Assembly (NCBI RefSeq): GCF_026627925.1
Contig: NZ_JAPNLE010000009.1
Span: forward strand, 992,001 to 1,056,000
Origin: Cupriavidus sp. D39
GTDB taxonomy: Bacteria; Pseudomonadota; Gammaproteobacteria; Burkholderiales; Burkholderiaceae
Direction: 5' to 3'
DNA length: 64,000 nt
A program made the position numbers and the translations under genes. Within the stretch, counting starts at the first letter, position 1, and each line of letters begins with the position of its first letter. Below the pieces are notes generated by a model that was given only the letters and a program-made list of their open reading frames with translations, ran no database searches and had not been told where the DNA came from. Of the stretch, positions 28,666 to 56,454 are shown one piece after another.

Positions 28666-29637
28666 GTGAAAGCAGTACGTGTCATACCGAGCCCTACTGG
28701 CGGCAAAGTGGAAATACAGGACATCCCCATTCCAGTCGCTGGCGCCGGCCAGGTTCTGGTCAGGGTGCGAGCCGCCGGTCTCAACCGGGGCGAAATCAAC
28801 CAGGCGCGTGAGTTGCGCACAGGCAATACGATCACCGCGGGCGTCGAGTTTGCCGGGGAGGTGGCAGCAGTCGGCGACGGCGTGAGCGGATGGCGCAAGG
28901 GGGATCGGGTCATGGGCCACGGTCGTGCGTGCCAGGCCGAGTATGTGATTGCCGATCCACTGGCGCTGATGGCCGTGCCCGATGGTCTTTCCTGGATCGA
29001 CGCCGCGGCATTCCCCAATGTCTTCATCACGGCCCACGACGCAGTGATGACCAATGGCCGCCTGCGTGCCGGCGAAGCGGTACTGATCAACGGCGCATCA
29101 GGCGGCGTGGCCATGGCCGCGATCCAGATCGCGTCGCTGTTTGGCGCCAAACCAGTGATCGCCACTTCACGCTCGGCCGCCAAGCTCGATCGCCTGAGCC
29201 AGTTCGGTGTGGACGTGGGCATCAATGCATCGAGCGAATCGCAGGTCGATGCCGTCATGGCTGCCACAGGCAATCATGGCGTCGATCTCATTATCGACAC
29301 CGTGGGCGGCCCGGTCTTCGAGGCAAATATGCAGAGCCTCGCGGTCAAGGGACGGCTGGTCAATATTGCCCGGCTGGGTTCGAGCACGGCGCAGATCGAC
29401 CTGAGCCTGCTCTGGCTCAAGCGGCTGACGCTGGTTGGCGTGACATTCCGCACGCGCTCAGAGCAGGAACGGCTGGAGTGCATCCAGGCTTGCGCGCGCG
29501 ACATGCTGCCCTTCCTGGCGGCTGGGCGGATCCGTCTGCCGATCGACCGCACCTTCGCAATGGACGCCATTGGCGAAGCGCACGCCTATATGCAGCTTGA
29601 CCAGCACGTCGGCAAGATCGTTCTGGTCGCGGACTAA
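28666..29637 (+). CDS. MDR-family (quinone oxidoreductase-like) dehydrogenase
   Basis: The 323-residue oxidoreductase is a close relative of the one at 13624. It has the GroES-like start VKAVRVIPSPTGGKVEIQD, AAFPNVFITAHDA, NGASGGVAMAAIQ near residue 143 and IIDTVGGPVFE near 211. The start is GTG 28666 after AAGGAGA. The TauD dioxygenase gene follows after 41 bp. Compared with the 13624 copy, the nucleotide-binding loop reads GGVAM rather than GGVGM. It probably works with the dioxygenase and the two small proteins in one pathway. Confidence 0.9.
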   Translation: MKAVRVIPSPTGGKVEIQDIPIPVAGAGQVLVRVRAAGLNRGEINQARELRTGNTITAGVEFAGEVAAVGDGVSGWRKGDRVMGHGRACQAEYVIADPLALMAVPDGLSWIDAAAFPNVFITAHDAVMTNGRLRAGEAVLINGASGGVAMAAIQIASLFGAKPVIATSRSAAKLDRLSQFGVDVGINASSESQVDAVMAATGNHGVDLIIDTVGGPVFEANMQSLAVKGRLVNIARLGSSTAQIDLSLLWLKRLTLVGVTFRTRSEQERLECIQACARDMLPFLAAGRIRLPIDRTFAMDAIGEAHAYMQLDQHVGKIVLVAD

Positions 29638-29677
29638 TTCATCCTTTTGAGTTTTCAAGAACGAACAGGAGACATTC

Positions 29678-30472
29678 ATGGGTATCCAGGTCACACCGCT
29701 CACCGGCTCGGTTGGCGGGTCGGTGGAAGGCATCGATTTGAACCAACCGATTGACGATGCGGCCTTCGAAGTGTTGCATCAGGCGTTCCTTGAATATGGC
29801 GTGCTGGTCTACCGCGGCCAAAGGCTCCAGCCCGAGGCCCAGATCGCATTTGCCAAGCGCTGGGGTAAGCCGGTGCAAAACAATCCGCTGCTGAGAGGGC
29901 TGCCGGACTTCCCGGAACTCGCCCAGGTCACCAAGATTCCCAAGGAGACGGCATCTACCGAGGCCTGGCACTCCGACTCCATCTATACCGAGGTGCCGCC
30001 CAAGATCTCGATTCTCTCCGCGGTGGTGGTACCGCGCGGCGGAGACACGATGTGGTGCAATCAATATCTGGCCTATGAGCGCCTGTCTCCCGCCATGCAA
30101 CGCATGCTCGAAGGCCTGCGCGTACGCTTCACGGGATTGCGGCTCGCCAGGATGACGGGGTCGGATTCGGTGCCCTCGGCGGTCCACCCGCTTGTTCGCA
30201 CCCATCCGGAGACACACCGCAAGGCGCTCTATGTGGGGCATCCCGACACGGCACACTCCATCGAAGGCATGACGCCCGCCGAAAGCCGGCCGCTCCTCGA
30301 CTTTCTCTATGAACACTCGACCAGCCCCGATAACGTCTACCGCCATATGTGGCAGCAAGGCGATGTCGTGATGTGGGACAACCGTTGCACCATGCACTAT
30401 GCCGTGCACGACTATGGCGAGGCCGAGCGCATCCTGAACCGGGTGACGCTGGAAGGCGAAGTCCCCTGTTGA
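29678..30472 (+). CDS. TauD/TfdA-family Fe(II)/2-oxoglutarate-dependent dioxygenase
   Basis: The 264-residue hydroxylase has the facial triad H98-x-D100 in AWHSDSIY and H240 in DNRCTMHYAV. The 2-oxoglutarate-binding arginine is expected in the segment that follows (NRVTLEGEVPC). It starts MGIQVTPLTGSVGGSVEGID, the usual TauD opening. The family couples decarboxylation of 2-oxoglutarate to hydroxylation, releasing sulfite when the substrate is taurine, but relatives act on many carboxylates. It forms an operon with the upstream MDR gene; this pairing occurs three times in the window. Confidence 0.9.
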   Translation: MGIQVTPLTGSVGGSVEGIDLNQPIDDAAFEVLHQAFLEYGVLVYRGQRLQPEAQIAFAKRWGKPVQNNPLLRGLPDFPELAQVTKIPKETASTEAWHSDSIYTEVPPKISILSAVVVPRGGDTMWCNQYLAYERLSPAMQRMLEGLRVRFTGLRLARMTGSDSVPSAVHPLVRTHPETHRKALYVGHPDTAHSIEGMTPAESRPLLDFLYEHSTSPDNVYRHMWQQGDVVMWDNRCTMHYAVHDYGEAERILNRVTLEGEVPC

Positions 30473-30713
30473 CAAGCAGCGGGCCCGGCTGCGGAACATG
30501 CGCGGCCGGTGCCCTGGTTGCCGGCGGCTTCCTTCCCGCCGGTCCGGATCGAATCCCTGTCCCCAGATGCTAGTCACGGCTTCACGCGCGCTACGCGGGT
30601 TTCCAGTGCCCCGCCATGGTCCCGCGTGGGGAAGCGCTTCTTGAACTGAAGGTGCCCGGCAGCCCGGTCACGAGGCCGCCGGGCGACAAGACAAGAGCAT
30701 AGGAGAATACACA

Positions 30714-31832
30714 ATGCAGATGGGTATCCCGACAGAAGTTCGGGCAGGCGAAGCACGCGTTGCCGCCACCCCGGAGACAGTCAAGAAATATGTTGCACAG
30801 GGCCACCAGGTTACCGTGCAGGCCGGTGCGGGATTGCGCGCCAGCCAGCCCGACGCCGCCTACGAGGCGCTCGGCGCCCGCATCGGCAGCGCCGCCGACG
30901 CCTTGGGCGCGCAGTTGGTGCTCAAGGTCCGCGCCCCGACCCCGGCCGAGCTGGCCCGGATGAGCGAGGGCTCGGTGCTGGTCGGCATGCTCAACCCCTT
31001 CGATGCCGAGAACAAGGCCCGCATGGCCGCCGCCGGCATTGTCGGCTTCGCGCTCGAGGCGGCGCCGCGCACTACCCGCGCGCAGAGCATGGACGTGCTC
31101 TCCTCCCAGGCCAATATCGCGGGCTACAAGGCGGTGCTGGTTGCCGCCCACCATTACCAGCGCTTCATGCCGATGCTGATGACCGCCGCCGGTACCGTCA
31201 AGGCGGCGCGCGTGCTGATCCTCGGCGCCGGCGTGGCCGGCCTGCAGGCCATCGCCACTGCCAAGCGCCTGGGCGCCGTCATCGAAGCCTCCGACGTGCG
31301 CCCCGCCGTCAAGGAGCAGATTGAATCGCTGGGCGCCAAATTCCTCGATGTGCCCTTCGTCACTGACGAAGAGCGCGAGATCGCCCAAGGGGTGGGCGGC
31401 TATGCCCGGCCGATGCCGGCGGACTGGATGCGGCGCCAGGCCGAACTGGTGCATGAGCGCGCCAAGGGCGCCGACATCGTCATCACCACCGCGCTGATCC
31501 CTGGCCGCCAGGCGCCGGTGCTGCTCAAGGAAGAGACCGTGCAGGCGATGAAGCCGGGCTCGGTGGTGGTTGACCTGGCTGCGGCGCAGGGCGGCAACTG
31601 CCCGCTCACGGTGGCCGACGAAGTGGTGGAGCGCCATGGCGTCACGCTGATCGGCCACACCAACCTGGCCGGCATGGTTGCGGCTGACGCGTCCGCGCTC
31701 TACGCGCGCAACGTGCTCGACTTCCTCAAGCTGATCATCGACAAGGATGGCAAGCTCGCCATCGATATGAACGACGACATCGTAGCGGCTTGCCTGATGA
31801 CCAAGCGCCGTGAACTGGAATTGACAAGCTGA
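30714..31832 (+). CDS. pntAA: NAD(P) transhydrogenase subunit alpha part 1 (PntAA)
   Basis: This soluble NAD(H)-binding domain I of the proton-pumping transhydrogenase has 372 residues. It shows [20 protein letters not shown] at the start, the Rossmann motif [20 protein letters not shown] near residue 165 and the mobile-loop region [14 protein letters not shown] near 225. It belongs to the three-gene form in which subunit alpha is split. It starts about 240 bp after the TauD gene and 10 bp before pntAB. Located inside a catabolic island, it could balance NADPH for the reductases and dioxygenases nearby. Confidence 0.95.
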
Positions 31833-31842
31833 GGAGAAGTCG

Positions 31843-32178
31843 ATGGAAATGGTGAACCACACGGTGATCAACCTGATCATCTTCGTACTGGCGATCTACG
31901 TGGGCTATCACGTGGTCTGGACGGTCACGCCCGCCCTGCACACACCCCTGATGGCGGTGACCAACGCAATCTCGGCCATCATCATCGTCGGCGCCATGCT
32001 GGCGGCCGGCCTGACCGAGGGCCCCGTCGGCCGCACCATGGGCGCGCTGGCGGTGGCGCTGGCCGCGGTCAACGTGTTCGGCGGCTTCCTGGTGACGCAG
32101 CGCATGCTGGAGATGTTCAAGAAGAAAGAACCCAAGGCCAAGCCGGCGGGTGCCCATGGCAAGGAGGCCACGGCATGA
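31843..32178 (+). CDS. pntAB: NAD(P) transhydrogenase subunit alpha part 2 (PntAB)
   Basis: The 111-residue protein has about three to four membrane segments, with [20 protein letters not shown] typical of the domain II half carried by PntAB. It carries part of the proton channel. The stop overlaps the pntB start by four bases (32175-32178), so synthesis is coupled. Confidence 0.95.
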
Positions 32179-33644
32179 GCAATCTCGTGAGCATGAACCT
32201 CGTCACCCTGCTCTACCTGCTCGCCTCGGTGTGTTTCATCCAGGCGTTGAAGGGATTGTCCCATCCTAGCTCCGCGCGGCGCGGCAATGCCTTCGGCATG
32301 ATCGGCATGGCCATCGCCGCAGTGACCACGCTGGTGCTGATCGCCAAACTGAAGCACGACTTCGTGACGGCAAGCGCCGGCCAGTCGTCGGTCGCCGAAG
32401 GCCTGGCGTTGATCTTCGGCGCGCTGGTGGTCGGCGGCGGCATCGGCGCCTACGTCGCGAAGAAGGTCGAGATGACCAAGATGCCTGAACTGGTGGCCGC
32501 CATGCATTCGCTGATCGGCCTGGCCGCGGTCTGCATCGCGGTGGCCGCGGTGGCTGAGCCGGCCGCCTTCGGCATTGCGCCAACGGGATCGCACGACATC
32601 CCGCTGGGCAACCGGATCGAGCTGTTCATCGGCTGCTTCGTCGGCGCCATCACCTTCTCCGGTTCGGTGATCGCCTTCGGCAAACTGGCCGGGCGCTACA
32701 AGTTTCGCATGTTCCAGGGCGCGCCGGTGTCCTTCGCCGGGCAGCATATGCTGAACCTGCTGCTGGCGGTGGCCATGATCGGCTTCGGCGTGCTCTTCTT
32801 CCTGTCGCAGGACTGGCTGCCCTTCCTGCTGATGCTGGCGATTGCCTTCGTGCTGGGCGTGCTGATCATCATCCCGATCGGCGGTGCAGACATGCCGGTG
32901 GTGGTATCGATGCTGAACTCGTACTCGGGCTGGGCGGCGGCCGGCATCGGCTTCTCGCTCAACAACCCGATGCTGATCATCGCGGGCTCGCTGGTGGGCT
33001 CCTCGGGTGCCATCCTCTCGTACATCATGTGCCGCGCGATGAACCGTTCGTTCTTCAATGTGCTGCTGGGCGGCTTTGGCAACACAACGGCAGCTGCCAC
33101 GGCCGGCGGTGCGGAACAGCGCAATGTCAAAGCCGGCTCGGCGGACGACGCGGCCTTCCTGATGGGCAACGCCGAAACCGTGATCATTGTCCCGGGCTAC
33201 GGCCTGGCGGTGGCGCGCGCGCAGCATGCGCTCAAGGAACTCACCGAGAAGCTGGTCGAGAAGGGCGTGACGGTGAAGTACGCCATCCACCCGGTGGCGG
33301 GCCGCATGCCGGGCCATATGAACGTGCTGCTGGCCGAGGCCGAGGTGCCTTACGACCAGGTCTTCGAAATGGAAGACATCAACAGTGAGTTCGGCCAGGC
33401 GGACGTGGTGCTGGTGCTGGGCGCCAACGACGTGGTGAACCCAGCCGCCAAGACCGATCCCAACTCGCCGATTGCCGGCATGCCGATCCTGGAGGCCTAC
33501 AAGGCCAAGACTATCATCGTGAACAAGCGTTCGATGGCGGCGGGCTACGCGGGCCTGGATAACGAACTGTTCTACATGGACAAGACCATGATGGTATTCG
33601 GCGACGCCAAAAAGGTGGTCGAAGACATGGGCAAGGCGGCCTGA
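32175..33644 (+). CDS. pntB: NAD(P) transhydrogenase subunit beta (PntB)
   Basis: The 489-residue protein has eight to nine membrane helices (domain II) and then the NADP(H)-binding domain III. The membrane part includes [20 protein letters not shown]. The C-terminal domain has [18 protein letters not shown] and ends with the family's [14 protein letters not shown] segment (here [16 protein letters not shown]). Together with PntAA and PntAB it forms the inner-membrane pump that reduces NADP+ with NADH using the proton gradient. Confidence 0.96.
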
Positions 33645-33731
33645 GGCAGCTTTGGCTGGCCGCCTGCGCCCATTGGCGAGCGGTGGCCGGGAAACACCCG
33701 CATCCATTCTGGCAATCAAAGGAGATTTGGC

Positions 33732-34517
33732 ATGAAAGCGCATCCCGCCCCTAACCCGTTTGCCGACCTGGAAGGCAAGGTAGCGCTGGTGACCGGCGCC
33801 TTCGGCGGCCTGGGCCGGCACTTCGCCCTGACCCTGGCGCGTGCCGGATGCCGGGTTGCACTGGCCGGACGGCGCGTCGGCGAAGGCGAGGCATTGCTTG
33901 CCGCGCTCCGCGACGAAGGTGGTCAAGGCTGCGTGGTTTCGCTCGACGTCAGAGACGCGGCCTCGGTGGCGTCGGCCTTCGCGAGTGCGGCCAGCGCGTT
34001 GGGCACGGTCAATATCGTGGTCAACAGCGCAGGCATTGCTGTCACGCGTCCCGCCATCGAGGTGGCGGAGGACGAATGGCAGAGCGTGATCGACACCAAT
34101 CTGAGCGGCGCGTGGCGGGTGGCACAACAGGCGGCGAAAATGATGCGCGATGGCGGCAAAGGCGGCAGCATCGTCAACATCGCCTCGATCCTTGGTATGC
34201 GCGTCGCCCAGCAAGTGCCTGCCTACACCGCGGCCAAGGCTGGCCTCATTCACCTGACACGGTCGCTTGCGCTGGAATGGGCGCGTTATGGCATCCGCGT
34301 CAATGCGCTGGCGCCGGGGTATTTTGAAACCGACATCAATCGGAGCTTTTTCGAGACCGATAGCGGCCAGGCGCTGGTAAAGCGGATACCGCAACGCCGG
34401 CTCGGGCAACCGGAGCAACTCGATGGTGCGCTGCTCCTGCTGGCGTCGGACGCCTCGGATTACATCACCGGCGCCGTCTTGCCCGTGGATGGCGGGCACA
34501 TGGTCAGCACGCTTTAG
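33732..34517 (+). CDS. SDR-family oxidoreductase (FabG-like)
   Basis: This is a classical SDR of 261 residues: TGAFGGLGRHFAL near residue 20, NSAGIAV near 98, the catalytic serine in NIASILGMR and YTAAKAG near 170. The C-terminus with SDASDYITGAVLPVDGGHM is typical of FabG-like 3-ketoacyl reductases. A ribosome binding site (AAAGGAGA) precedes the ATG. It lies downstream of pntB and upstream of a kinase-like gene on the same strand. The substrate is unknown. Confidence 0.88.
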   Translation: MKAHPAPNPFADLEGKVALVTGAFGGLGRHFALTLARAGCRVALAGRRVGEGEALLAALRDEGGQGCVVSLDVRDAASVASAFASAASALGTVNIVVNSAGIAVTRPAIEVAEDEWQSVIDTNLSGAWRVAQQAAKMMRDGGKGGSIVNIASILGMRVAQQVPAYTAAKAGLIHLTRSLALEWARYGIRVNALAPGYFETDINRSFFETDSGQALVKRIPQRRLGQPEQLDGALLLLASDASDYITGAVLPVDGGHMVSTL

Positions 34518-34595
34518 CAGGCTTTAGCACGAAACGCACGACACAAGCAATCGAAGAGACCTCGTAGTGGATCGCGGATCCAGGAGACAGACACG

Positions 34596-35684
34596 ATGAC
34601 GCATGCCAGCGCGCAAAGCGAGACCGCCCCGGCGGATGAACACACGCTGGACCTGGATTGCACCAGACTGGCAGTCTTGATGCACGAACAGGGCCTGATC
34701 GAGCGGCCCTCGCTGATGGCGGAACGGCTGGCCGGCGGCCAGTCCAATCCCACCTATCGGATCTGGTGCGAAGCGCAACAATATGTGCTGCGCACCAAGC
34801 CGCCGGGCAAGCTGCTATCGTCCGCCCATGCCATTGACCGCGAATATCGCGTGATGCGTGCCCTGCAGGGCAGCGAAGTACCCGTCCCGCGGCTCTTCCT
34901 CTACAGCGAGGATACGTCGATCCTGGGCAGCCCCTTCTACGTCATGGAGTTCCTGCAAGGCAGGGTGATGTTCGACCAGTCGCTGCCCGGCCTGTCGCGC
35001 GCAGAACGCACGGCGATTTATCGGGAAATGAATCGCGTGATCGCCGCCTTGCATCGGGTGGACTATCACAAGGTAGGCCTCGCCGACTATGGCAAAAGCG
35101 GAAACTACATCGCACGGCAAGTGAGCCGCTGGTCGCGCCAGTGCGAAGAAACCGGTACGGACGGCAATACGGCGCTGGCAGCCCTGGCGGACTGGCTTGC
35201 GCGCCATCTTCCGCCGGAACACCAGACCAGCCTTGTGCACGGCGACTTCCGCCTGGACAACCTGCTCTTTCATCCGACCGAGCCGCGCGTACTCGGGGTC
35301 CTGGACTGGGAATTGTCGACGCTAGGCCACCCGGTGGCCGACCTTGCCTACCAGTGCATGGGCTGGCACATCCCGGCGTCGCTCTGGCGCGGCATCGGCG
35401 GGCTGGACCTGCATGCTCTGGGCATTCCGGACGAGGCCACCTACATCCAGTGGTACGGCAACGCCAACGGCATGCAGGAGATGGAACATTGGGACTTCTA
35501 CCTCGCCTATAACTTCTTCCGGCTTGCGGCCATCATGAACGGTATCGCGCGGCGCGCAGAAGGCGGCAATGCGGCGGCAGCGGATGCGCTGGAAACCGGC
35601 CGCAAGGCAAAACCGCTTGCGGAACTGGGCTGGGAGTATGCGACCCGCTACGGGGCAACGCGGCCAGGGGCATGGGCGCGCTAA
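34596..35684 (+). CDS. aminoglycoside-phosphotransferase-like kinase (ACAD10-type)
   Basis: The 362-residue protein has the choline/aminoglycoside kinase fold. It shows GGQSNPTYRI near residue 48 and the catalytic loop VHGDFRLDNLLFHPTEPRVL near 213. The metal-binding LDWELSTLGHPVADLAY follows. It resembles the bacterial phosphotransferases found next to acyl-CoA dehydrogenases (ACAD10/11-like), thought to phosphorylate hydroxyacyl-CoAs or hydroxy acids. No acyl-CoA dehydrogenase is nearby. A strong hairpin lies about 90 bp after the stop. Confidence 0.87.
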   Translation: MTHASAQSETAPADEHTLDLDCTRLAVLMHEQGLIERPSLMAERLAGGQSNPTYRIWCEAQQYVLRTKPPGKLLSSAHAIDREYRVMRALQGSEVPVPRLFLYSEDTSILGSPFYVMEFLQGRVMFDQSLPGLSRAERTAIYREMNRVIAALHRVDYHKVGLADYGKSGNYIARQVSRWSRQCEETGTDGNTALAALADWLARHLPPEHQTSLVHGDFRLDNLLFHPTEPRVLGVLDWELSTLGHPVADLAYQCMGWHIPASLWRGIGGLDLHALGIPDEATYIQWYGNANGMQEMEHWDFYLAYNFFRLAAIMNGIARRAEGGNAAAADALETGRKAKPLAELGWEYATRYGATRPGAWAR

Positions 35685-36045
35685 TCCCGTGCAGCGGCCG
35701 CCAGCGGGCCCGCTTTATGTGTCCATCCCCGCAAGCGACGTGCCGGCACTTGAGCCGCGCAGACTAAGCAACGTGTGCCCCCCGCAGCGGGGGGCATGCA
35801 TCGACCTTGCGGAAGCTAGACTCGGCGTCGGGATCTTGGCATTCAGGCTCGCATTGGGGTTTCCGATGCTCGTACTCTCGGTGGCCCGAACGTGCCTGGT
35901 CGATTCAAGGCACGCGAACTACGGAACGGCGATGCCACATTCCCACTACCTATCGACATAACTGGTAAGGGATATCCAAATTTCCCGTTATGCCGATTAG
36001 GCCGAGCGCTCTACGCTCGCTCATCCACACAGGAAAGCCCCCTCC
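35685..36045. other. intergenic region ahead of the sulfur genes
   Basis: The first part holds the hairpin at 35776-35796. The last 100 bases contain an A+T-richer block (35959-35995) with the imperfect inverted repeat TAAGGGA ... TCCCGTTA, which may be the operator or promoter of the YeiH-SorAB genes. No coding sequence is recognisable. Confidence 0.5.
35776..35796. terminator. strong GC hairpin, probable transcription end of the kinase operon
   Basis: TGCCCCCCGC (35776-35785) and GCGGGGGGCA (35787-35796) are perfect reverse complements around a single base, so a 9-bp stem with a three-base loop can form. No T tract follows on either strand, so termination by this hairpin alone is uncertain. 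Confidence 0.5.
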
Positions 36046-37131: not shown

Positions 37132-37170
37132 GCGCCGGCAGATAAAAAGACCAACCCCAGAGGAGAAGCC

Positions 37171-38424: not shown

Positions 38425-38432
38425 GGTACAGC

Positions 38433-39068
38433 ATGATGTCTCCTAAACTGGTACGCGCCAGCCTCGCCGCCGCAATGGCAGTCGTGAGCGGCATTCCCGC
38501 TGCCTTTGCACTGGAAGTCACGCTACCCGCGGAAACCGCCAGCTATCGCGCTAGCGAACTCCCCGGATACCGCCTGGTGCAGCAGAACTGCATGACCTGC
38601 CACTCCGCCCAGTACGTGCAAAGCCAGCCGCCTTCTTCTACGCGCGCCTATTGGGAAGCCACGGTGAAGAAGATGAAGAAGCCCTTTGGCGCACCGCTGA
38701 AGGACGAGGACATGCCGGCCATGATCGATTATCTGGTCAAGACCTACGGCGCCGAACGGGGCAAGGACAGCCCGGGAACCGCCGGCGCGCATCCGGCCGT
38801 GCAAGCATCCACAGCGCCGCAGGATGCCAGGAGCCTGCTCAATGCGAACAACTGCACCGCTTGCCACACTGTCGACAAGAAGCTGGTCGGGCCAGCGCTG
38901 CACGATGTCGCGGCGAAGTACGCCGGAAAAGCGGATGCCACCACGCAATTGATGCAGAGCATCCGTGCCGGCGGAAGCGGGAAATGGGGCGCCGTTCCCA
39001 TGCCCGGGTTCCCGCAGCTAAGCGAGGCCGAATTGAAAACCCTGGCAAGCTGGGTGCTCACACAGTAG
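38433..39068 (+). CDS. sorB: c-type cytochrome, electron acceptor of sulfite dehydrogenase (SorB-like)
   Basis: The exported cytochrome has a signal peptide (LAAAMAVVSGIPAAFA) and two heme-binding motifs, CMTCH near residue 52 and CTACH near 145, so it is diheme and longer than the monoheme SorB I know from Starkeya. I chose ATG 38433, seven bases after GAGG. An ATG at 38421 overlaps the sorA stop but lacks a binding site. It would take electrons from the molybdenum subunit and pass them to the respiratory chain. Confidence 0.88.
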   Translation: MMSPKLVRASLAAAMAVVSGIPAAFALEVTLPAETASYRASELPGYRLVQQNCMTCHSAQYVQSQPPSSTRAYWEATVKKMKKPFGAPLKDEDMPAMIDYLVKTYGAERGKDSPGTAGAHPAVQASTAPQDARSLLNANNCTACHTVDKKLVGPALHDVAAKYAGKADATTQLMQSIRAGGSGKWGAVPMPGFPQLSEAELKTLASWVLTQ

Positions 39069-40549: not shown

Positions 40550-40665
40550 ATTGATTTCCCGGTCGGACAGACTGGCCTGAAGCTAGATTGAAGATTACCC
40601 GCGTGGAAGCCCGGTGTGTCTGCAGCAATAGGCGCTAGCACACAGAAGGCAACGGAAAAGGCAAG

Positions 40666-40689
40666 GGAATCGGCAATGGAATCGGCAAT
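40666..40689. repeat. two tandem 12-bp repeats upstream of phaZ
   Basis: GGAATCGGCAAT occurs twice head to tail (40666-40677 and 40678-40689), roughly 120-140 bp upstream of the phaZ start, between phaZ and the acyl-CoA ligase. It could be a regulator site or chance. Confidence 0.55.
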
Positions 40690-40742
40690 GACGTTATATT
40701 GCAATCACGCGGCTGCCCACTTCCCTTGCCGGCCCTTTACCC

Positions 40743-42416
40743 CTATTCACCCTCCCCCTGCACCAGATCCCGTCGAAGCTGCTTCTTGTCGATTTTCCCG
40801 ACACTGGTCTTCGGGATCCCGGAAACAAAGACGATCCGCTGCGGATCCGGCACGGCATACCGGCTGATGCGCCTGGTTTCCACGTGGCGCTCCAGGTGAC
40901 GGCGAATCTGCTCGACAGTCAGTGCGCTATCGTCGACGCATACCGCGGCCATCGGCCGCTCGCCCCATTTGTCGTCCGGCACCCCGATCACCGCGCATTC
41001 ACGCACGCCGGGAATCTCGCAGATCAGGTTTTCGACCTCGATCGAGGACACCCACTCGCCGCCGGTCTTGATGACGTCCTTGAGACGATCCACCACCTGT
41101 ACGTAGCCGTCCGGGCGCATGACCGCCACATCCTGGGTATGCAGGTATCCACCGGCCCAGAGTGCCTCCGATGCCTCGGGCTGGCCAAGGTAGGACAGCG
41201 TCAGGTATGGCGAGCGCAGCACGATTTCCCCTTGCGTCTTGCCGTCACGCGGCACATCGCGCATCGCGCTGTCGACCACGCGGAAATCCACCAGGGGAAT
41301 CGGCCTGCCGGTCATGCAGCGCATGCGAACGCTCTCATCGATATCGTCGGGAGCGCCTCCGGGCGGGAATTGCGACAGCGCGACAATTGGCCCCGTCTCC
41401 GACATGCCATAGCCGGCAAACACATCGATGCCTTGCGTGACAGCGGCTTTGCAAAGCGAGGCCGATAGCGCGGAGCCGCCGATGACCATCTTCCATCCGC
41501 TAAGATCAGTCTGCTGCTCGCCGGCCTTTTGCAGCAGCATCTGGAGAATGGTGGGCACGCAATGGGAAAAGGTCACCTTCTCCGCCTTGCGCAGGCGTAG
41601 CAGGTTCTCCGGCAAGTAGCGCCCCGGGAGCACGATCTTGAGTCCGAGCATGACGGCAACGTAGGGCATGCCCCATGCCAGCACATGGAACATCGGCGTG
41701 ATGGGCATATAGACGTCTTCGCGGTGGAGCCGCTGGCCATCGCGCGGAGCACATAGCGTGGTCGCCGTGGCGAGCGTATGCAAGACGATCTGGCGGTGGC
41801 TGTAGCTCACGCCTTTCGGATCGCCAGTGGTGCCCGTTGTATAGAAGATGGCCGCCGTGGTCCTCTCGTCGAAATCCCGGAATGCAAACTCGGCCGGTGC
41901 CTGGTCGATCAGCGCCTCGTATTCCCCCGCGACCGGCAGGCTGATCTCCCGCAGCGCCTGACCATCTGCTATCACGATGATCTTGCGCAGGTAGCGCAAT
42001 TCCGAGCGTATCTGCTCCACCAGGGGCAGGAAGTCGGCATGGACCAGGGCTAACTCGGCACCCGAGTCGTTCAGCGTATAGGCAATCTGTTTGGGAGAGA
42101 TGCGCACGTTAACCGTGAAGAGCCTCGCGCCCATCATAGGGATGGCGAAATAGCTCTCCAGGTAGCGGTGGCTGTCCCAATCCATGACCGCAACGGTCGA
42201 CCCTTGTACGACACCCTGTGCATCCAGTGCGCAGGCAAGCCGCCCGATACGCTGGCGGAACTCGCTGAAGGTAAAGCGCCGCTCCCCGCAGTAATTGATT
42301 TCCTGGCTGCCATGGAGGCTGACCGAATTCAGAAGCAGTTGCCCAACAAGCAACGGATAGTCATACGCGGATGGAGTTGCCGACGCATGGCGCGCGGACG
42401 GTTCAAATGCTTGCAT
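40743..42416 (-). CDS. AMP-forming fatty acyl-CoA synthetase
   Basis: The complete 557-residue ligase has the P-loop FYTTGTTGDPKG near residue 193, FHVLAWGMPY near 245, GYGMSETGP near 340, the hinge region VVDRLKDVIKTGGEWVSS near 447 and the catalytic lysine in KTSVGKIDKK near the C-terminus. The start is ATG 42416 after GGAGA. It resembles medium- and long-chain acyl-CoA synthetases of the kind used for fatty or dicarboxylic acids. A Bug receptor gene diverges from it across a 245-bp promoter region, so receptor and ligase may serve the same acid. Unlike the ligase at 7923 it is intact. Confidence 0.92.
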   Translation of the reverse strand: MQAFEPSARHASATPSAYDYPLLVGQLLLNSVSLHGSQEINYCGERRFTFSEFRQRIGRLACALDAQGVVQGSTVAVMDWDSHRYLESYFAIPMMGARLFTVNVRISPKQIAYTLNDSGAELALVHADFLPLVEQIRSELRYLRKIIVIADGQALREISLPVAGEYEALIDQAPAEFAFRDFDERTTAAIFYTTGTTGDPKGVSYSHRQIVLHTLATATTLCAPRDGQRLHREDVYMPITPMFHVLAWGMPYVAVMLGLKIVLPGRYLPENLLRLRKAEKVTFSHCVPTILQMLLQKAGEQQTDLSGWKMVIGGSALSASLCKAAVTQGIDVFAGYGMSETGPIVALSQFPPGGAPDDIDESVRMRCMTGRPIPLVDFRVVDSAMRDVPRDGKTQGEIVLRSPYLTLSYLGQPEASEALWAGGYLHTQDVAVMRPDGYVQVVDRLKDVIKTGGEWVSSIEVENLICEIPGVRECAVIGVPDDKWGERPMAAVCVDDSALTVEQIRRHLERHVETRRISRYAVPDPQRIVFVSGIPKTSVGKIDKKQLRRDLVQGEGE

Positions 42417-42661
42417 AGGAAGTCTCCGTGTAGTGTTTGTGAGTAGCATGCTCCGCCAGCGACGTCGCGCGCCGGCCTGATGCGCTGGATTCTCCCCTAG
42501 TCCCACTCCGCACCCCCCAAGGCAGGGGGCGATGCCACGGACGCCAGGGTAAGAATGCTGGCAAGGGGCCGTTGGGCCTGGTATGCGTTGCCTACGTCTT
42601 TGCGCTTCTTGCAGTACGCAGCCACCAAGCCAGGGCCGCTATCAACAACAAGGAGACACTC

Positions 42662-43657
42662 GTGGAATGCATCAAGTGGTTTGACCGGGGCGGTCGTGCA
42701 CTCATGGCCGCCGGCACCGTGGTCCTGTGCCTCGCTGGCCAGCAGGCAGGCGCCGAAACCTGGCCTGCCAAGCCGGTTCGCATCGTCACGGCTGCGCCCG
42801 CGGGCGGCACCGCCGACATGCTCGCCCGTAGCCTGGCTGACGGGCTGACCAGGCAACTTGGCCAACCCTTTATCGTCGACTCCAAGCCGGGTGGCTTCGG
42901 CGCCATTGCAGTGCAAGACATGCTGGCAGCGCCGCATGATGGCTATACGCTACTGGTCATCCAGGATGGCATCGCGTCCGAAGCCCCTTTCCTGGCCAAG
43001 CAGCGGTTCGACCCCTTCAAGGACATCAAGCCGGTTGCGGAGCTGGCGCGCGGCGGGTTGGTGCTTGTCGGCAATCCCGCCTTGCCCGCCAAGACCCTTG
43101 GCGAGCTGATCTCCTATGTCAAAGCCCATCCCGCCTCGGTCAACTATGCGTCCTACAGCACAGGCATGCTCGGGCATACCATGGGCCCGCAGTTGAATGA
43201 GCTTGCCGGCATCGACATGAGCCATGTGGGCTACAAGGGATCTCCGCCGGCGCTCCAGGATGTGATGGGAGGGCATGTCCCCCTGATGTTCGATGGGACA
43301 GCGACTTCGCTGCCGCTCATCAAGGCTGGCAAACTCCGCGCCTTCGCCGTCAGTTCGCCGAAGCGCCTTGCGACGCTCCCGCAGGTACCCACGTTCACCG
43401 AACTTGGCTACCCTGCGCTTAACCAGCTCGCGTGGATCGGCGTCTGGGTAGCACCTGACGTGCCAGAAGCGATCCAGGACCGCTTGCGTGCGGCAACCCG
43501 CAAGGTGCTTGAATCGGCATCGGTACGGGATCGCATTGCCGAACTCGGCCTGGACGTTGGGGTTCCCAGGAGCCAGGCTGAACTGGGCGCCTCGCTGCGC
43601 ACGGCGCACGATCGCCAGGGCGCACTGCTAAAGGCGATTGACTTCAAGCCAGACTAG
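42662..43657 (+). CDS. Bug/TctC-family periplasmic solute receptor
   Basis: This 331-residue receptor starts at GTG 42662 after AAGGAGA. It has a signal peptide (cleavage near QAGA-ETW) followed by WPAKPVRIVTAAPAGGTADM. DGYTLLVIQDGIASEAPF and GYKGSPPALQDVMGGHVPLM are nearly shared with the receptor at 9301, so these two form a subgroup and may bind similar acids. It is divergent from the acyl-CoA synthetase. In both places where this subgroup occurs, an acyl-CoA ligase gene is adjacent. Confidence 0.9.
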   Translation: MECIKWFDRGGRALMAAGTVVLCLAGQQAGAETWPAKPVRIVTAAPAGGTADMLARSLADGLTRQLGQPFIVDSKPGGFGAIAVQDMLAAPHDGYTLLVIQDGIASEAPFLAKQRFDPFKDIKPVAELARGGLVLVGNPALPAKTLGELISYVKAHPASVNYASYSTGMLGHTMGPQLNELAGIDMSHVGYKGSPPALQDVMGGHVPLMFDGTATSLPLIKAGKLRAFAVSSPKRLATLPQVPTFTELGYPALNQLAWIGVWVAPDVPEAIQDRLRAATRKVLESASVRDRIAELGLDVGVPRSQAELGASLRTAHDRQGALLKAIDFKPD

Positions 43658-43765
43658 CCATACCCGCTCGTACACAATACCGCTAGCCAGGAACGCTTGC
43701 CCATGAACACGCCAAACACAAGCATGGATCTTGTGCCCAGCCTGACAATCGTGCTGTCATTCCCG

Positions 43766-46464
43766 CTACGCGTCGCGCAGCAGGCCTAGCAGTTGCGCCC
43801 TGCGCACGATTTGCTTGCGCGTGCCGGCATCGAGCTTGGCGGACAGATTCTTCAGGTGCCATTTGACGGTCTCTTGCCCGATGCCCATGGCAAGCGCGAT
43901 TTCCTTGTTGGCAAGGTGCCGGGCCAGCAGTTCCAGGACATTGCGCTCTTTCGGCGTCAGCACCATGCTGGGCGCCGCGCGCGGCCCGTCTGCGCCAGTC
44001 GCGGCGAGGGGACGTGCCGCCGGCGCCAGCGTGGCGGGATCAAGACGCCGGGCAACTGTGGATTCAGTCTCGATATCGCGCGCCCAGTCCGCCAGCGCGG
44101 GATGGACGTCGCGCACGCCGCGCGTCACCCCGTATGCCTCCAGCAGGTTCATGGCTTCACGCAGCAAGGCAAGGCTCTTCTCCCCGCAGCGGTCCATGGC
44201 CAGCGCCCGCAGCGCCATGATCTCGATGCGCACGACCTCGCGCTTCATCGCCTCGGCCCCTGCTTCCGCCCGCGTGAGCTGCTGCTGCGCCGCGCGCCAG
44301 TCCTGCTCGGCAATGCACGTATAGGCATGCGCCAGATCCTGAAGCAGGACCAGGTTGCGCTGCCGGATCGGAGACTCGGGCGCGGCGTTGTCTGCAACGA
44401 TCTCATCGATGCGCCGCCGCAGGGTCCGGCACGTCTCCGAGCGAAAACGCCCGCTATGCAGCCGCAACTGCTCTGTCAGGCTGGCCACGCACAGCCTGGG
44501 CAGGTTGCGGGCAATGCCAACCGCATACATGGTCTCGAGCAGGTCGAGAGCGCGATGCTCGACGCCCCTGGCGGCGGCGATGCGGGCCGCCGTGCGGTAA
44601 GCCAGCAGCACCGTGTCTGGCGTCCCGCCACGCTCCAGGACATCCAGGCGATTGGCCAGCAGCGCTGCCGCTTCGTCAACCTGGTCCCGCGCATAAGCGG
44701 CGGCGGCCAGCAAGCCGGCGATCATGCAGGAAAACGGATGGCGCCGGCCCAGCTCTTCGTCGGCGCGGGCCAGTGCCGGGCGCAGCGTGCGCTCCGCCAA
44801 TAGCACCTGTCCCTCGAACAGGTACCCCAGCCCGATGATGTAATCGCGCCAGCGGATCACGTAGCGGTAGGCAAGACTGGCGTCGCCGCGCGGCGCGTTC
44901 TGTTCGTAACGGCGCGCCTTGGCATACTCCCCTGCCGTCAGCGCGCGCACGGCCAGGCGGTTGGCATGCGCCTGCTGCAGCCACGCATCGTTGACGGGCG
45001 GTGCCTCCCCCAGCGATCGAACAGTGCCGCGACGCGGTCCGGCTCGTCCGCGTAGTAGGCCGCGGCGCTCAGGATCAGGTCGATCTCGTAGCGCATGGCA
45101 TCGTCCGGCGTCGCATGGCGCAGGATTTGCCGCACTTGCGCCTCGGCCTGCTGGTGGCGCTCGCTCAGCGCCAGCGCCCATGCCGCCGCTAGGCGCAGGC
45201 GTGGATGCCGGTCCAGCTCGGACTCGGGCAGCCATTCGAGCCATTCGAGCACGGCGGACAACTGGCCGCGCGTGGCGGCGTCATGCAGGCAGCGCTGCGC
45301 CAGGCCGTAGGCAGTCTCGCGCTGGCCGCTGGCGAGCGCGTGGCGCGCGGCAGCCTCGGTCATGCCATGATCGGCAAGCCAGTGCATCGCACGATCGTGC
45401 ATCCCGGCGAGCTCCTGAGCCGGGAGGTCCGCCAGCCGGGTGCGCAGCGCATCGCGTGCCATCGCATGCAGGCGGAACCACTCGCCATGCTGGTCCGAGA
45501 CGACAAACAGCGGCGTGTCACGCATCAGACGCTGCAAACGCTCCTGCGCATCCGGCAACCCCGTCACGGCGTGGCAAAGATCGGCATGCAGCAGCTCGAC
45601 GATCGAGATGCGCGTCAGGAACCCGGTATCCGCATCGGAAAGCCGGGCGAGCAGCGCGGTAACGAAGTGTTCTCGCATGCCTGCGGTACTGCTGGCGAAG
45701 GCATCAATGGCGGCAACGGGATCGGGAGCATGGGCGATTGCCGCCAGCGCGAGTTGCAGGCCGAGCGGCCAGCCCTCGGTCACGTCATGCAACCTGGCGC
45801 AGGCGTCGGCCTCCACGCTGGCCTCAAAGTGCCTGCCGATCAGCGCGATCGTCTCGTCCAGGCGGAAACGCAGCAAGCCGGTATCGACTTTCACGCACTG
45901 GCCATATGGGCCCAGCCGCTCCACGACCGTGTCGAAGCCGCCGCGGGCCGCCACCACGATGCGCAGGTTGGATGGCAAGTTGTTAAGCAGGTAGATCAGC
46001 GCATCGCGGCTAGCGTCCGGCAGCCGCTCGGCCTCATCCAGTATGAGCACGACATCCAGCGCAAGGTGGGCAACCTCGCCCAGCCATGCCGTGAACCCCT
46101 CCAACAGTCCATCGGTTGCCCTCTCGCCTTCCAGCAGCCGTCCGCCGAATGCAGCGCGCCCGCAGCCTGAGCGAATCGCGCTCGTGAGGCTCATCAGCAA
46201 CCGGCGGGGATCGTTGCCCTCATCCAGCGACACCCAGGCCACGGCGCTGCCGCGCATGATGTATTCGCGGTGCCACTGGATCAGCAGGGATGTCTTGCCG
46301 AAGCCGGCAGGCGCTTGCACGATCGTCACGGGCCGGTCAACGAACCGCTCGCTATCCGAACGCAGGCGCGACCGCGCTAGCAGGTGGCGCGGTGCGCGCG
46401 GTGGACTGGTCTTGAGCAGCAGTTCCGATGCTGCGATGCCAGTGCCACTGGTGGGATTTGTCAT
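43766..46464 (-). pseudogene. large LuxR-family ATP-dependent regulator (MalT/LAL type), frameshifted
   Basis: The N-terminal STAND ATPase has Walker A APAGFGKTSLL near residue 50 and a LILDEAERLPDA Walker B-like segment near 130. A long helical repeat region follows, ending in a LuxR helix-turn-helix (LTPKERNVLELLARHLANKE, then GIGQETVKWHLKNLSAKL). The frame breaks within LFDRWG at a CCCCC run (45007-45011). One added base yields about 899 residues, the usual size for this class. ATG 46464 (MTNPTSGTG) is the best start. It diverges from the Usp-hemerythrin gene and may control it or the neighbouring acyl-CoA ligase. Confidence 0.87.
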
Positions 46465-46774
46465 CAAGTAAGCCCGGCAGGCTATGCCGATCAAGTGGGT
46501 TGAGCGTATCCGGCGGGTCAGCCGAAGCGCACGGCCGATGCCGCGGATTATAGCCACGCCGGGTGCATTGCTGGTCGCTCTCAGGGATATCCCTGTGCCC
46601 TATCCCCCCGCTGCTGGGGGAGCCCCCACCGGCGCGCTCCTACCATTCAATCCACAATCAGGACGATCAAACAAGGGACGCAATGCCTGCAACCGACAAC
46701 CCAATCGCTACGACGCCCGGCGTCCATGCACCAACGTCGCCCTAACCCGCTCTAACCAGAAACCGGCCCAGACC
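46465..46774. promoter_or_regulatory. divergent promoter region with a small leader ORF
   Basis: This 310-bp region separates the LuxR-type and Usp-hemerythrin genes. A GC hairpin (TCCCCC ... GGGGGA) lies around 46603-46621. A 20-codon frame at 46683-46745, MPATDNPIATTPGVHAPTSP, has a good ribosome binding site (AAGGGA) and ends 29 bases before the Usp ATG, which itself lacks one. It may be a translational leader. Confidence 0.45.
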
Positions 46775-47722
46775 ATGTTCCGCCATCTGTTCGTCCCTGT
46801 CGACCCCCGCGACCACGACGCCAAAGCAACGCTGCAAGCGATCGCACTGGCCCGCAGCCACGGTGCGCGCATCAGCTTCCGGCATGCGCAGGATAGCTGT
46901 ACGCGTGGCCAGTCGCAGGTCCGCGAGGCGCTGGTCCGGGCAGATGCGGCGGCACGTGCACAGGGCGTAGCGAGCACGTTCGCCAGTCTCGTTGCCGAAC
47001 ATCCGGCGCGGGCCTTGCTGGCCGCGGCGGACCAGGCCGGTTGCGACGCGATTGTCCTCGCCCATGGCACGGGGGATCTCGCCGAGCCGGCGTCACCTGC
47101 CAGGGACATGCTGATGCATGCCCGCATTCCCGTGCTATCGATCGGGGCTGCTTGCGCACCCGCGCCCATTGCGGCAATCGATTTGCTGCACAACGCGTAC
47201 AGCCGCCTGGCCACGCTGCTGCACGCCTGGCTGCGCCTCGTCGAGGCGCCGCCGGTGGCGGGCGCGCCGATTGTCGCGGCTCCCATGCTGGCAGCCGTCG
47301 AATATGTGCACCAGACGATTCATCCGCTGCACCGGCGCAAGGAGGCCACGTTGTTTCGCCGCCTGAGCCAGCGCAGCGAAGCCCTGCGCGCAGAACTGGA
47401 CGAGCTGTCCCGCCAGCATTTGCGCCAAGAGAATCTGCTTGATGACCTTGCCGTGCAAGTGGAGCAAGCCGCTGCCAGCGCGTCCGCCTTTACAGCGCTC
47501 GCCCGGGTGGTCGAGCAGTATGCCCGCCTGGTATGGGAGTACAGGGGCCGCGAAGAAGGCGTGGTATTGCCGGCGGCGCGCCACTACTTCACTCAGGCCG
47601 ATTGGGATGCGCTGCATGTCGCGCTGACCCAGGCCATCGATCACCGCGCCGGGATTCGCTCCGACGCCACTTTTGCACAGCTGCTAGCCGCGCTTGCCCC
47701 AGCCGCACCGCCGGGTGCCTGA
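46775..47722 (+). CDS. fusion of universal-stress-type domain and hemerythrin (HHE) domain
   Basis: The first 135 residues follow the UspA fold (MFRHLFVPVDPRDHDAKATL; DAIVLAHGTGD; HARIPVLSIG). Residues 155-300 form a four-helix hemerythrin-like bundle with spaced metal ligands (EYVHQTIHPLHRRKEATLF, then WEYRGREEGVVLPAARHYF). HHE domains bind a di-iron centre and sense or buffer oxygen, NO or iron. The fusion suggests a stress-linked oxygen or redox sensor in the cytoplasm. It diverges from the LuxR-type regulator. Confidence 0.8.
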   Translation: MFRHLFVPVDPRDHDAKATLQAIALARSHGARISFRHAQDSCTRGQSQVREALVRADAAARAQGVASTFASLVAEHPARALLAAADQAGCDAIVLAHGTGDLAEPASPARDMLMHARIPVLSIGAACAPAPIAAIDLLHNAYSRLATLLHAWLRLVEAPPVAGAPIVAAPMLAAVEYVHQTIHPLHRRKEATLFRRLSQRSEALRAELDELSRQHLRQENLLDDLAVQVEQAAASASAFTALARVVEQYARLVWEYRGREEGVVLPAARHYFTQADWDALHVALTQAIDHRAGIRSDATFAQLLAALAPAAPPGA

Positions 47723-47789
47723 ACGCATCCCGGCGGATCGCCGCTAAACCGAATCAACCACATACTGAATATAACGAGGAGGAGTCAAC

Positions 47790-48769
47790 ATGCCACACGC
47801 CATTCGAATCCATGAAACCGGCGGCCCGGAAGTCTTGCAATGGGAGGAGGTCGCCGTGGGCGATCCGGGTCCCGGGCAGGTGCGCTTGCGCCATGAAGCC
47901 GTTGGCCTGAACTTTGCGGACACCTACTTTCGCTCGGGCCTGTACCCGATGCCACTCCCGGCCGGCATGGGCGTTGAAGCCGCCGGCGTGGTCGAGTCCG
48001 TCGGAGCCGGCGTCAGCCAGGTCGCGGTGGGCGATCGCGTCACCTATACGGGCTTTCTGAATACGCTCGGCGCGTACAGCACCGAACGCCTGATCCCGGC
48101 TGCGGCGCTGATCAAGCTGCCCGCCGGCATCGCCTGCGAGACAGCTGCCGCCATGACCATGCGCGGCCTGACTTCCGCTTACCTGATGCGCCGCATCCAC
48201 GCTTTCAAGCCCAACGACACCATCCTGCTGCACGCCGCCGCCGGCGGGTCGGCCTGATCGTCTCGCAATGGGCGAAGCTGCTCGGCCTCACCGTGATCGG
48301 CACGGTGTCGAGCGAGGCCAAGGCGGCCGTCGCCCGCGCCCACGGCTGCGACCATATCATCGACTACAGCCGTGAGGACGTGGCCAAGCGTGTGCGCGAA
48401 CTGACCGACGGCATCGGCGTCAACGTAGTGTTCGACAGCGTCGGCAAGGACACCTTCGAGGCTTCGCTGGATTCGCTCAAGCGCCGCGGCCTGATGGTCT
48501 GCGTGGGCACCGCCTCGGGCCCGATCCCGCCGTTCAACCCGCAATTGCTGGCAATGAAAGGGTCGCTCTACCTGACCCGCCCGGCCCTGGCCGACTACAT
48601 CGCCGACCCCGCCGAAAAGAGGGAACTGGCGGATGAACTGTTCGCCCATGTCGCGGCCGGCCGCATCCGGATTGAGATCAACCAGCGCTACGCCCTGCAG
48701 GATGCGGCACAAGCCCATCGGGACCTGGAGTCGCGCAAGACCACCGGATCCTCGATTTTCGCGGTCTAG
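47790..48769 (+). pseudogene. NADPH:quinone oxidoreductase (QorA-type MDR), frameshifted
   Basis: The protein opens MPHAIRIHETGGPEVLQWEE, the canonical quinone-oxidoreductase start, with NFADTYFRSGLYPMPLPAGM following. The frame breaks in the nucleotide-binding loop (LLHAAAGG) at GGG 48246-48248. One extra G gives the expected GGVGLIVSQWAKLLGLTVIG and a product of about 326 residues. It is a different subtype from the MDR proteins at 13624 and 28666. It is followed after 10 bp by a TauD-type gene, so the MDR-TauD pairing is kept. Confidence 0.87.
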
Positions 48770-48778
48770 GAGGGCATC

Positions 48779-49627
48779 ATGCGTGTCGAACAATTGACTT
48801 GCGCCATCGGCGCCGAGCTGACCGGCGTCAACCTGGCCGATGCCATCCACGATGGCGACCTGTTTGCGCAGATCCGGTCTGCGCTCATCCGGCACCGCGT
48901 GGTGTTCCTGCGCGACCAGGACATGACGCGCGCCGAGCACGTCGCCTTTGCGCGCCTCTTTGGCGAGCTGGAAGACCACCCGGTAGCCGGCAGCGACCCC
49001 GATCATCCCGGCCTGGTGCGGATCTACAAGAATCCGGACCAGCCGAACGATCGCTACGAGAACGCGTGGCACTCGGATGCCACCTGGCGCCCGGCCCCGC
49101 CCCTCGGCTGCGTACTGCGCTGCGTGGAGTGCCCACCGGTGGGCGGCGACACCATGTGGGCGAACATGGTCCTGGCCTATGAAAACCTGCCCGAGCACAT
49201 CAAGAGCCAGATCGCCGACCTGCGCGCGCGCCACAGCATCGAAGCCAGCTTCGGCGCCGCCATGCCAATCGAGAAGCGCCTTGCGCTGAAGGCCCAGTTC
49301 CCGGACGCCGAGCACCCGGTCGTGCGCACCCACCCGGAGACCGGCGAGAAGGTGCTGTTCGTGAATGGCTTCACCACGCACTTCACCAGCTTCCACACGC
49401 CGCAGCGTGTTCGCTACGGCCAGGACGGAAATCCGGGCGCTAGCCTGCTGCTCAACTACCTGATCAGCCAGGCCAATATCCCCGAGTACCAGGTGCGCTG
49501 GCGCTGGCAGCCCAATAGCGTGGCGATCTGGGACAACCGCTCGACCCAGCACTACGCCGTCATGGATTACCCGCCCTGCCATCGCAAGATGGAGCGCGCC
49601 GGAATTATTGGCGACACCACGTTCTAG
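48779..49627 (+). CDS. TauD/TfdA-family Fe(II)/2-oxoglutarate-dependent dioxygenase
   Basis: The intact 282-residue hydroxylase has the iron triad H98-x-D100 (AWHSDATW) and H258 (RSTQHYAVMDY). LTCAIGAELTGVNLADAI at the start and EHPVVRTHPETGEKVLFVNG match the paralogue at 14895. It lies between the oxidoreductase and BKACE genes in a compact plus-strand operon with spacers of 10 and 55 bp. The substrate is unknown. Operon logic suggests that it hydroxylates a carboxylate ahead of the other two steps. Confidence 0.92.
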   Translation: MRVEQLTCAIGAELTGVNLADAIHDGDLFAQIRSALIRHRVVFLRDQDMTRAEHVAFARLFGELEDHPVAGSDPDHPGLVRIYKNPDQPNDRYENAWHSDATWRPAPPLGCVLRCVECPPVGGDTMWANMVLAYENLPEHIKSQIADLRARHSIEASFGAAMPIEKRLALKAQFPDAEHPVVRTHPETGEKVLFVNGFTTHFTSFHTPQRVRYGQDGNPGASLLLNYLISQANIPEYQVRWRWQPNSVAIWDNRSTQHYAVMDYPPCHRKMERAGIIGDTTF

Positions 49628-56443: not shown

Positions 56444-56454
56444 GGCCCCACTCC

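Follow-up and report, generated by a model that had tools for sequence, protein, structure and literature searches.

Cassettes in Cupriavidus sp. D39 point to a probable Pseudomonadota catabolic module that links TauD-family dioxygenases and zinc-free MDR reductases with a divergent BKACE-family clade

A 64,000-nucleotide stretch of the 7.74 Mb genome of the soil bacterium Cupriavidus sp. D39, referred to here as the window, contains three places at which a gene for a medium-chain dehydrogenase/reductase (MDR) is followed by one for a TauD-family dioxygenase. The pairs start at positions 13624/14895, 28666/29678 and 47790/48779 (cassettes A, B and C, respectively). Genes of the β-keto acid cleavage enzyme (BKACE) family lie at 10985 and 49683, and small serine hydrolase genes of the family Ser_hydrolase (PF06821), to which RBBP9 presumably belongs, lie at 15932 and 52229. 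All of these assignments, made in a first-pass annotation, were upheld by domain calls with Pfam. The question is whether the genes form a functional unit and, if they do, whether it works in the order proposed at the time, namely hydroxylation by the dioxygenase, alcohol oxidation by the MDR enzyme and cleavage by BKACE. We consider it reasonably probable that cassettes A and C, and one more copy at another place in the genome, belong to a catabolic module that is widespread in Pseudomonadota, includes an AraC regulator and a transporter (MFS or another kind), and is arranged around a divergent BKACE-fold enzyme. This gene set probably degrades a compound through a chemistry that has yet to be described.

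The neighbourhood was compared across the best 80 of 559 related places, ranked by their match to the dioxygenase of cassette C (TauD_C) and taken from 39 Pseudomonas and 41 Burkholderiaceae records. The 80 loci are best matches from related organisms and hence are not independent; neighbours were counted among the genes inside the stretch retrieved round each locus. TauD_C is 83–97% identical across these loci, and an MDR gene lies immediately upstream of it in all 80. The other neighbours are a BKACE-family gene (75 loci), an MFS transporter (75), the hydrolase (70), a Rieske protein (63), an AraC regulator (61), a DsbA-like protein (49) and a YeiH-like protein (38). Of the five loci without BKACE, two come from short stretches of 5.8 and 12.2 kb and three from full ones. 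Pseudomonas and some Burkholderiaceae have the order MDR–TauD–BKACE–MFS, and many Paraburkholderia the order BKACE–MFS–MDR–TauD–hydrolase; the linkage holds although the gene order varies between lineages. A second TauD–BKACE pair stands in tandem in two Pseudomonas loci (L037 and L052), and the laboratory strain P. fluorescens FW300-N2E3 (L053) is among the carriers of the cluster.

A wider sample of 398 genomes over the phylum was searched for the BKACE clade (E <= 1e-60) and the TauD family (E <= 1e-80), which were detected in 16 and 15 genomes, respectively. Both occur together in 13 genomes, that of strain D39 included, against 0.6 expected (hypergeometric P of 7e-20, uncorrected for kinship). 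Counted by family label, TauD is present in four and the BKACE clade in the same four plus three more. The sample holds 24 TauD places, three of them in the D39 genome; at 14 of the 24 a BKACE gene is no more than about 1.5 kb away, and the same is true of an MDR gene at 14. Neither is within this distance at six places (L227, L228, L231, L232, L233 and L236), and for two of these, L228 and L231, a BKACE gene is found some kilobases off in the wider stretches L170 and L171. Within the D39 genome itself, which has 27 ADH_N (PF08240) matches and nine TauD genes (ten match rows, two being one split gene), the chance of at least three adjacent MDR–TauD pairs is about 4e-5, with 7,000 genes assumed. 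Chance adjacency was rejected on the strength of the 80-locus linkage and the 13 shared genomes against 0.6 expected.

The neighbourhood extends to another class of the phylum, where locus L161 carries AraC–MDR–TauD–BKACE–hydrolase–MFS at 37–74% identity. Its cluster also holds a second TauD relative, along with genes that resemble those for a TonB-type receptor, a P450, two α/β hydrolases, a CoA ligase and a ChrR-like cupin; the NCBIfam matches of those extra genes that were scanned fell below cut-off. In Cupriavidus basilensis OR16 (L009, G714; several contigs) seven genes match TauD_C at E <= 1e-60; one of them is interrupted by an internal stop, and several adjoin MDR, BKACE, CoA ligase or Rieske genes, a paralogue expansion. 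The conserved neighbourhood in other genomes on which the first-pass annotation had staked its proposal was thus found in Burkholderiaceae, in Pseudomonas and in one genome of another class. No paper on this gene combination was found by a literature search from which subscription journals were largely missing.

What sets the module apart is its BKACE-family enzyme. BKACE_A (10985..12043, + strand; PF05853, 198 bits on the open reading frame (ORF) 10772–12043) and BKACE_C (49683..50740, + strand, in two frames with PF05853 matched in pieces) score above the PF05853 cut-off and have the BKACE TIM-barrel fold. The zinc ligands His46, His48 and Glu230 and also Arg226 (Kce numbering) are each kept in 115/115 clade sequences. 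The catalytic base, Glu143 in Kce and Glu171 in the Paracoccus enzyme, is kept in 0/115, with Gln in its place in 111. The base Glu is present in all 14 canonical BKACEs of a baseline for which 17 BKACE loci were fetched (L181–L197), ten passing a motif filter and seven being dropped before the count. At the position of Kce Tyr145 the clade has Thr in 87 sequences (C type), Tyr in 21 (A type) and Ala or Gly in seven; BKACE_A is of the A type, with Gln at the base position and Tyr retained (Q143/Y145), and BKACE_C of the C type, with Gln/Thr replacing Glu and Tyr/Phe. The Gln/Thr motif is present in the window's own first BKACE_C piece. In the canonical sample this second position is Tyr in 5/14 and Phe in 9/14, so that Tyr is not universal, contrary to the available portion of PMC12871164.

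In the sections of PMC11961710 at hand, Glu171 of the Paracoccus BKACE is the proposed catalytic base, its Leu mutant is dead, and the base-position mutants given are Leu and Asp, none being Gln. Against NCBIfam models of characterised BKACEs, the cassette proteins score 123 and 126 versus a cut-off of 382 at best. The cassette BKACEs form part of a separate clade in which this putative base is missing. Database proteins scoring E<=1e-30 number 6,464, and residues were checked in the 120 listed. Members of the clade are often labelled in public records as a lysine-fermentation enzyme (3-keto-5-aminohexanoate cleavage protein), and several (for example P0015, P0027 and P0071) are publicly named 'transposase', an apparent annotation error that has spread.

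The MDR enzymes give no support to the role first assigned to them. MDR_A (13624..14598, +; PF00107/PF08240) and MDR_B (28666..29637, +; Pfam on ORF 28522–29637) resemble the PIG3 family, yet score below the TIGR02824 cut-off (251.9 and 264.6 bits, respectively, versus 296.8). MDR_C (47790..48769, +, in two frames recognized by Pfam in pieces) is QorA-type: its unbroken OR16 copy reaches 372.1 bits against a cut-off of 348 for NF008024, NADPH:quinone reductase (NCBIfam). Its nearest solved relatives (9kuj, 3jyl, 1qor and 1wly) are quinone oxidoreductases and a 2-haloacrylate reductase. In the catalytic zinc ligand columns, Cys46 and His67, MDR_A and MDR_B have Asn and Val; among MDR_C-like sequences Asn replaces Cys46 in 115/115 and His67 is found in 0/115, a GHE string in two of the 115 lying outside the ligand column. 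Of four control genes two were usable, and both have Cys and His; one was read in the wrong frame and one has neither ligand. Assignment of the MDR enzymes as zinc alcohol dehydrogenases was rejected, as both tested ligands are absent from MDR_A, MDR_B and all 115 MDR_C-like sequences. Zinc-free MDRs are expected to reduce quinones or conjugated C=C bonds, not to oxidise an alcohol.

The dioxygenases of cassettes A and C are TauD_A (14895..15736, +; PF02668, 220 bits on ORF 14783–15736) and TauD_C (48779..49627, +; PF02668, 217 bits), the latter intact and with a full-length match of 572 bits to PDB chain 5vn6_A. TauD_C is 97% identical to its counterpart in C. basilensis OR16, and other genomes of the genus hold close relatives. 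Residue roles (sulfonate anchoring by His70 and Arg270, iron, 2-oxoglutarate (2OG) and amine binding) are assumed here from work on taurine dioxygenase, TauD. TauD_A, TauD_C and 125/125 relatives share with that enzyme its iron triad, its 2OG residues and both His70 and Arg270. The amine-binding positions differ, with Tyr73 changed to Ala or Asn and Asn95 to Glu; among the relatives Asn95 is Glu in 125/125 and Tyr73 is Ala in 117/125. All three window enzymes fall below the cut-off of 313 for taurine dioxygenase (NF007104, NCBIfam), with 245.1 for TauD_A, 209.5 for TauD_B and 250.5 for TauD_C. Since the anchors are kept, the amine-side residues changed and the scores below cut-off, TauD_A and TauD_C probably bind an anionic group of the substrate at one end, whereas what they bind at the other end is unlike the amine side of taurine.

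Cassette A consists of BKACE_A, an AraC-family regulator (12290..13291, +; PF12625 and PF12833), MDR_A, TauD_A, the small serine hydrolase HYD_A (15932..16530, +) and a porin (16860..18065, +; PF13609, 170 bits). Cassette C comprises MDR_C, TauD_C, BKACE_C, an MFS transporter (about 50854–52191, +, start approximate; PF07690, 142 bits on ORF 50275–52191) and the small serine hydrolase HYD_C (52229..52831, +; PF06821, 143 bits over residues 10–187). The further related cluster, outside the window at C9:408000-427900 (L170), has a hydrolase, TauD, AraC in two frames, MDR, BKACE and a porin; a gene in it also looks like one for a TctC-like receptor.

The first-pass annotation had described three parallel cassettes, which holds for A and C, two of one kind (TauD_A and TauD_C are 64% identical), and fails for B. 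Cassette B is a separate MDR–TauD pair, with no BKACE nearby and followed by transhydrogenase genes. Its dioxygenase, TauD_B (29678..30472, +; PF02668, 231 bits), is of another subfamily and has Asn, not His, at TauD position 70. MDR_B is 70% identical to MDR_A, and the MDR_C pieces are only 28–30% identical to MDR_A. Relatives of TauD_B at E <= 1e-60 occur in 4/150 genomes of the family and 3/185 over the class, the D39 genome included in each. The MDR–TauD_B pair recurs at 83–85% identity in two of the four family genomes, one of which has a second place at 55–66%; in the fourth no MDR lies beside TauD_B, nor does one adjoin it in the two other genomes of the 185 that have a match outside the family. 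The pairing is seen within the genus only. Three equal parallel cassettes were thus rejected on the MDR and TauD identities, the neighbours and the TauD residues.

Several described systems share parts of this gene set. In bacteria the step from γ-butyrobetaine to carnitine is made by a 2OG dioxygenase of the TauD family, a dehydrogenase then yields dehydrocarnitine, on which BKACE acts, and the BKACE of the carnitine route is canonical, whereas that of the module has its base Glu replaced. Degradation of γ-butyrobetaine and L-carnitine (to betainyl-CoA and then glycine betaine) combines a dioxygenase, an oxidoreductase and a BKACE-family enzyme in one route, as in the module, and the earlier statement that no pathway with this combination is described was too strong, since this route follows the same logic. 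The module is not filed under it because the oxidoreductase family and the BKACE active site differ. In Pseudomonas aeruginosa, carnitine dehydrogenase, BKACE and DhcAB act in carnitine breakdown and the dehydrogenase is similar to 3-hydroxyacyl-CoA dehydrogenase, in contrast to the MDR of the module (PMC12482172, available text). In the deoxyribonate pathway the BKACE gene shares a putative operon with genes for MFS transporters and an oxidoreductase; the latter is a short-chain dehydrogenase/reductase, not an MDR, and the available part of PMC6365646 describes no dioxygenase in the operon.

Triacetate acetoacetate-lyase of phloroglucinol degradation is also a BKACE-family zinc enzyme, in an aromatic-derived pathway; according to the portion of PMC10470551 at hand, its pocket is largely conserved with Glu14 changed to Trp, whereas the module C type keeps Glu14 and is changed at the base position. 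BsfD of flavophos biosynthesis is a DUF849 member with an altered active site and non-BKACE chemistry (PMC12871164, a preprint, as far as its available text goes). In an alignment BsfD (9zsc) retains the Glu and carries Phe instead of Tyr, in contrast to the module clade, which is without the Glu. The cis-epoxysuccinate hydrolase CESH[D] (5zmu and 5zmy), with catalytic D115 and E190 in the accessible part of PMC6429283, shows distant sequence similarity only. Epoxide-hydrolase-like catalysis for the clade was considered because of CESH[D] and was not adopted, in a comparison that did not cover the CESH[D] residue at the base position.

The sequences directly show which genes are present, how they are linked and which residues are altered; from this we infer each catalytic step, the step order and the substrate of the module as follows. 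The dioxygenase would oxidise an anionic substrate held by His70 and Arg270 to an unstable hydroxylated or unsaturated product, and the zinc-free MDR would use NADPH to reduce an intermediate that has a C=C bond or is quinone-like. Cleavage or hydrolysis of the resulting β-dicarbonyl-like compound would fall to the BKACE-fold zinc enzyme, by a route other than the canonical acetyl-CoA retro-Claisen reaction. An ester or thioester may be taken off by the small serine hydrolase, and the acid may enter acyl-CoA metabolism through the ligase that is often a neighbour. It is conceivable, if still rather doubtful, that the Gln-type clade represents a new activity, a zinc TIM-barrel lyase or hydrolase working without a glutamate base and perhaps without acetyl-CoA, in an undescribed aerobic pathway in which TauD desulfonates or hydroxylates an anionic compound and the zinc-free MDR reduces the product.

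Several observations weigh against the module as drawn here. Three of the 16 BKACE-clade genomes (G385, G463 and G686) are without the TauD family at the threshold used, and the BKACE clade is therefore not tied to TauD everywhere. No MDR lies within about 1.5 kb in 10 of the 24 TauD places of the wider sample, and the 19.5 kb of locus L172 contain TauD and BKACE but no MDR. The correlation between TauD and BKACE distances is modest (r of 0.41 over 68 loci), and strict pairing of TauD type with BKACE type was rejected on this value and on the occurrence of BKACE_A-type genes beside TauD_C-type genes. The A-type BKACE keeps its Tyr, a BKACE reaction that is slow or altered could still proceed with Gln, and a zinc-free MDR is not necessarily limited to C=C reduction. 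No measured activity was found for any of the cassette enzymes. Finally, the cassettes of the window may not all work, as four genes of cassettes A and C have frame breaks. MDR_C is split over the frames 47790–48257 and 48293–48769, and BKACE_C runs from 49683–50333 into the frame of 50294–50740. HYD_A is divided between 15794–16486 (PF06821 positions 1–95) and 16249–16530 (positions 105–171), and the TauD_A ATG at 14895, next to a run of C, is one base out of frame with the remainder of the gene.

These breaks may reflect either sequencing error or real decay. The OR16 copies of MDR_C (326 residues) and BKACE_C (351 residues) are unbroken. Alignment of window positions 43748–51629 with OR16 has 15 gaps, 14 of which are not multiples of three, some of them between genes; seven of the 14 adjoin a homopolymer (at least four identical bases in a row), where sequencing errors are frequent. 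The MDR_C break adjoins such a run and the BKACE_C break does not. The breaks favour an account in which common catabolic families came to lie together by chance and are now decaying in this genome; set against the homopolymer-associated gaps, the unbroken copies and strong linkage elsewhere and the high identity of TauD_C over the 80 loci, we regard this as very unlikely. The first-pass annotation had the dioxygenase hydroxylate a carboxylate, the MDR enzyme form a β-keto acid and BKACE use acetyl-CoA to turn this into acetoacetate and an acyl-CoA; in the version weighed here the hydroxylation is at the β position and the hydrolase serves as a thioesterase. Its logic is shared with carnitine and deoxyribonate degradation (PMC12482172 and PMC6365646, in the parts available), the BKACE fold and zinc site are retained and the hydrolase recurs in 70/80 loci. 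That order of steps is nevertheless improbable: the MDRs lack the zinc ligands and MDR_C belongs to a quinone-reductase family, the catalytic Glu is absent from 115/115 clade members, an aromatic residue two positions further along is missing as well in the C type, and the scores lie far under the cut-offs for characterised BKACEs.

A sulfonate is the most specific lead to the substrate that the sequences suggest. An organosulfonate or sulfate ester pathway would have TauD cleave a C–S or C–O bond in the manner of taurine dioxygenase, a protein of the YeiH/TauZ type (we take TauZ and YeiH to be one family) export sulfite or sulfate, and the remaining enzymes process the carbon skeleton. The retained anchors His70 and Arg270, with the iron and 2OG ligands, are consistent with it, as is the YeiH-like gene (PF03601; Pfam was run on one) in 37/39 Pseudomonas loci and in L161, L165, L166 and L171. 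TauZ is a sulfate exporter in taurine regulons according to the available part of PMC5320631. Against it, only 1/41 Burkholderiaceae loci has a YeiH-like gene, and the L161 protein scores 169 versus a YeiH model cut-off of 232.6. TauD_C is below the taurine dioxygenase cut-off with changed amine-binding residues, and His70 and Arg270 may hold a carboxylate instead. The Pseudomonas accessory genes (DUF1302, DUF1329 and RND-, acyl-CoA dehydrogenase- and ligase-like) suggest a hydrophobic acid. On balance we think this pathway unlikely, though it deserves more weight than the step order first proposed.

The accessory genes of the module differ between lineages. The 39 Pseudomonas loci have the DsbA-like gene in 39, Rieske in 38, DUF1302 in 31 and DUF1329 in 26; of the 41 Burkholderiaceae loci, 32 hold a CoA ligase, 30 a porin, 25 Rieske and 18 a LuxR/MalT-like regulator. 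The cluster continues in two genomes into genes that resemble those for Ycf48, an acyl-CoA dehydrogenase, a CoA ligase and an RND transporter, and the NCBIfam matches of the Ycf48-, RND- and acyl-CoA dehydrogenase-like genes, from one genome, were all below cut-off. In the window a LuxR/MalT-like regulator is spread over two ORFs upstream of cassette C (43766–46557, −) and corresponds to a single protein of 900 residues in OR16. Directly upstream of the cassette, a single ORF (46484–47722, +) encodes a universal stress domain and, after it, a hemerythrin domain. A fourth TauD-family gene (56482–57296, −), split in two frames, adjoins an enolase-superfamily gene (55292–56578) and two TctC-type receptors (53214–55434). 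Elsewhere in the window, a protein of 1,237 residues with POR and DUF6537 domains (20743–24456, −) presumably resembles indolepyruvate ferredoxin oxidoreductase, and ORF 58666–59469 (+), judged by its first residues only, resembles an insertion-sequence transposase.

The module is common in Pseudomonas, relatives of Burkholderia and Cupriavidus. This, together with the seven TauD_C relatives in OR16, suggests that it may handle an abundant natural compound. If the Gln-type clade does have a new activity, perhaps thousands of database proteins named 3-keto-5-aminohexanoate cleavage protein would be misnamed. The lysine-fermentation name is in use for the clade although the catalytic base has been lost, and models built on it would be wrong. 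The clade is set apart by one residue for which mutant data have been published in a relative, and the proposal is thus directly testable with a few purified proteins.

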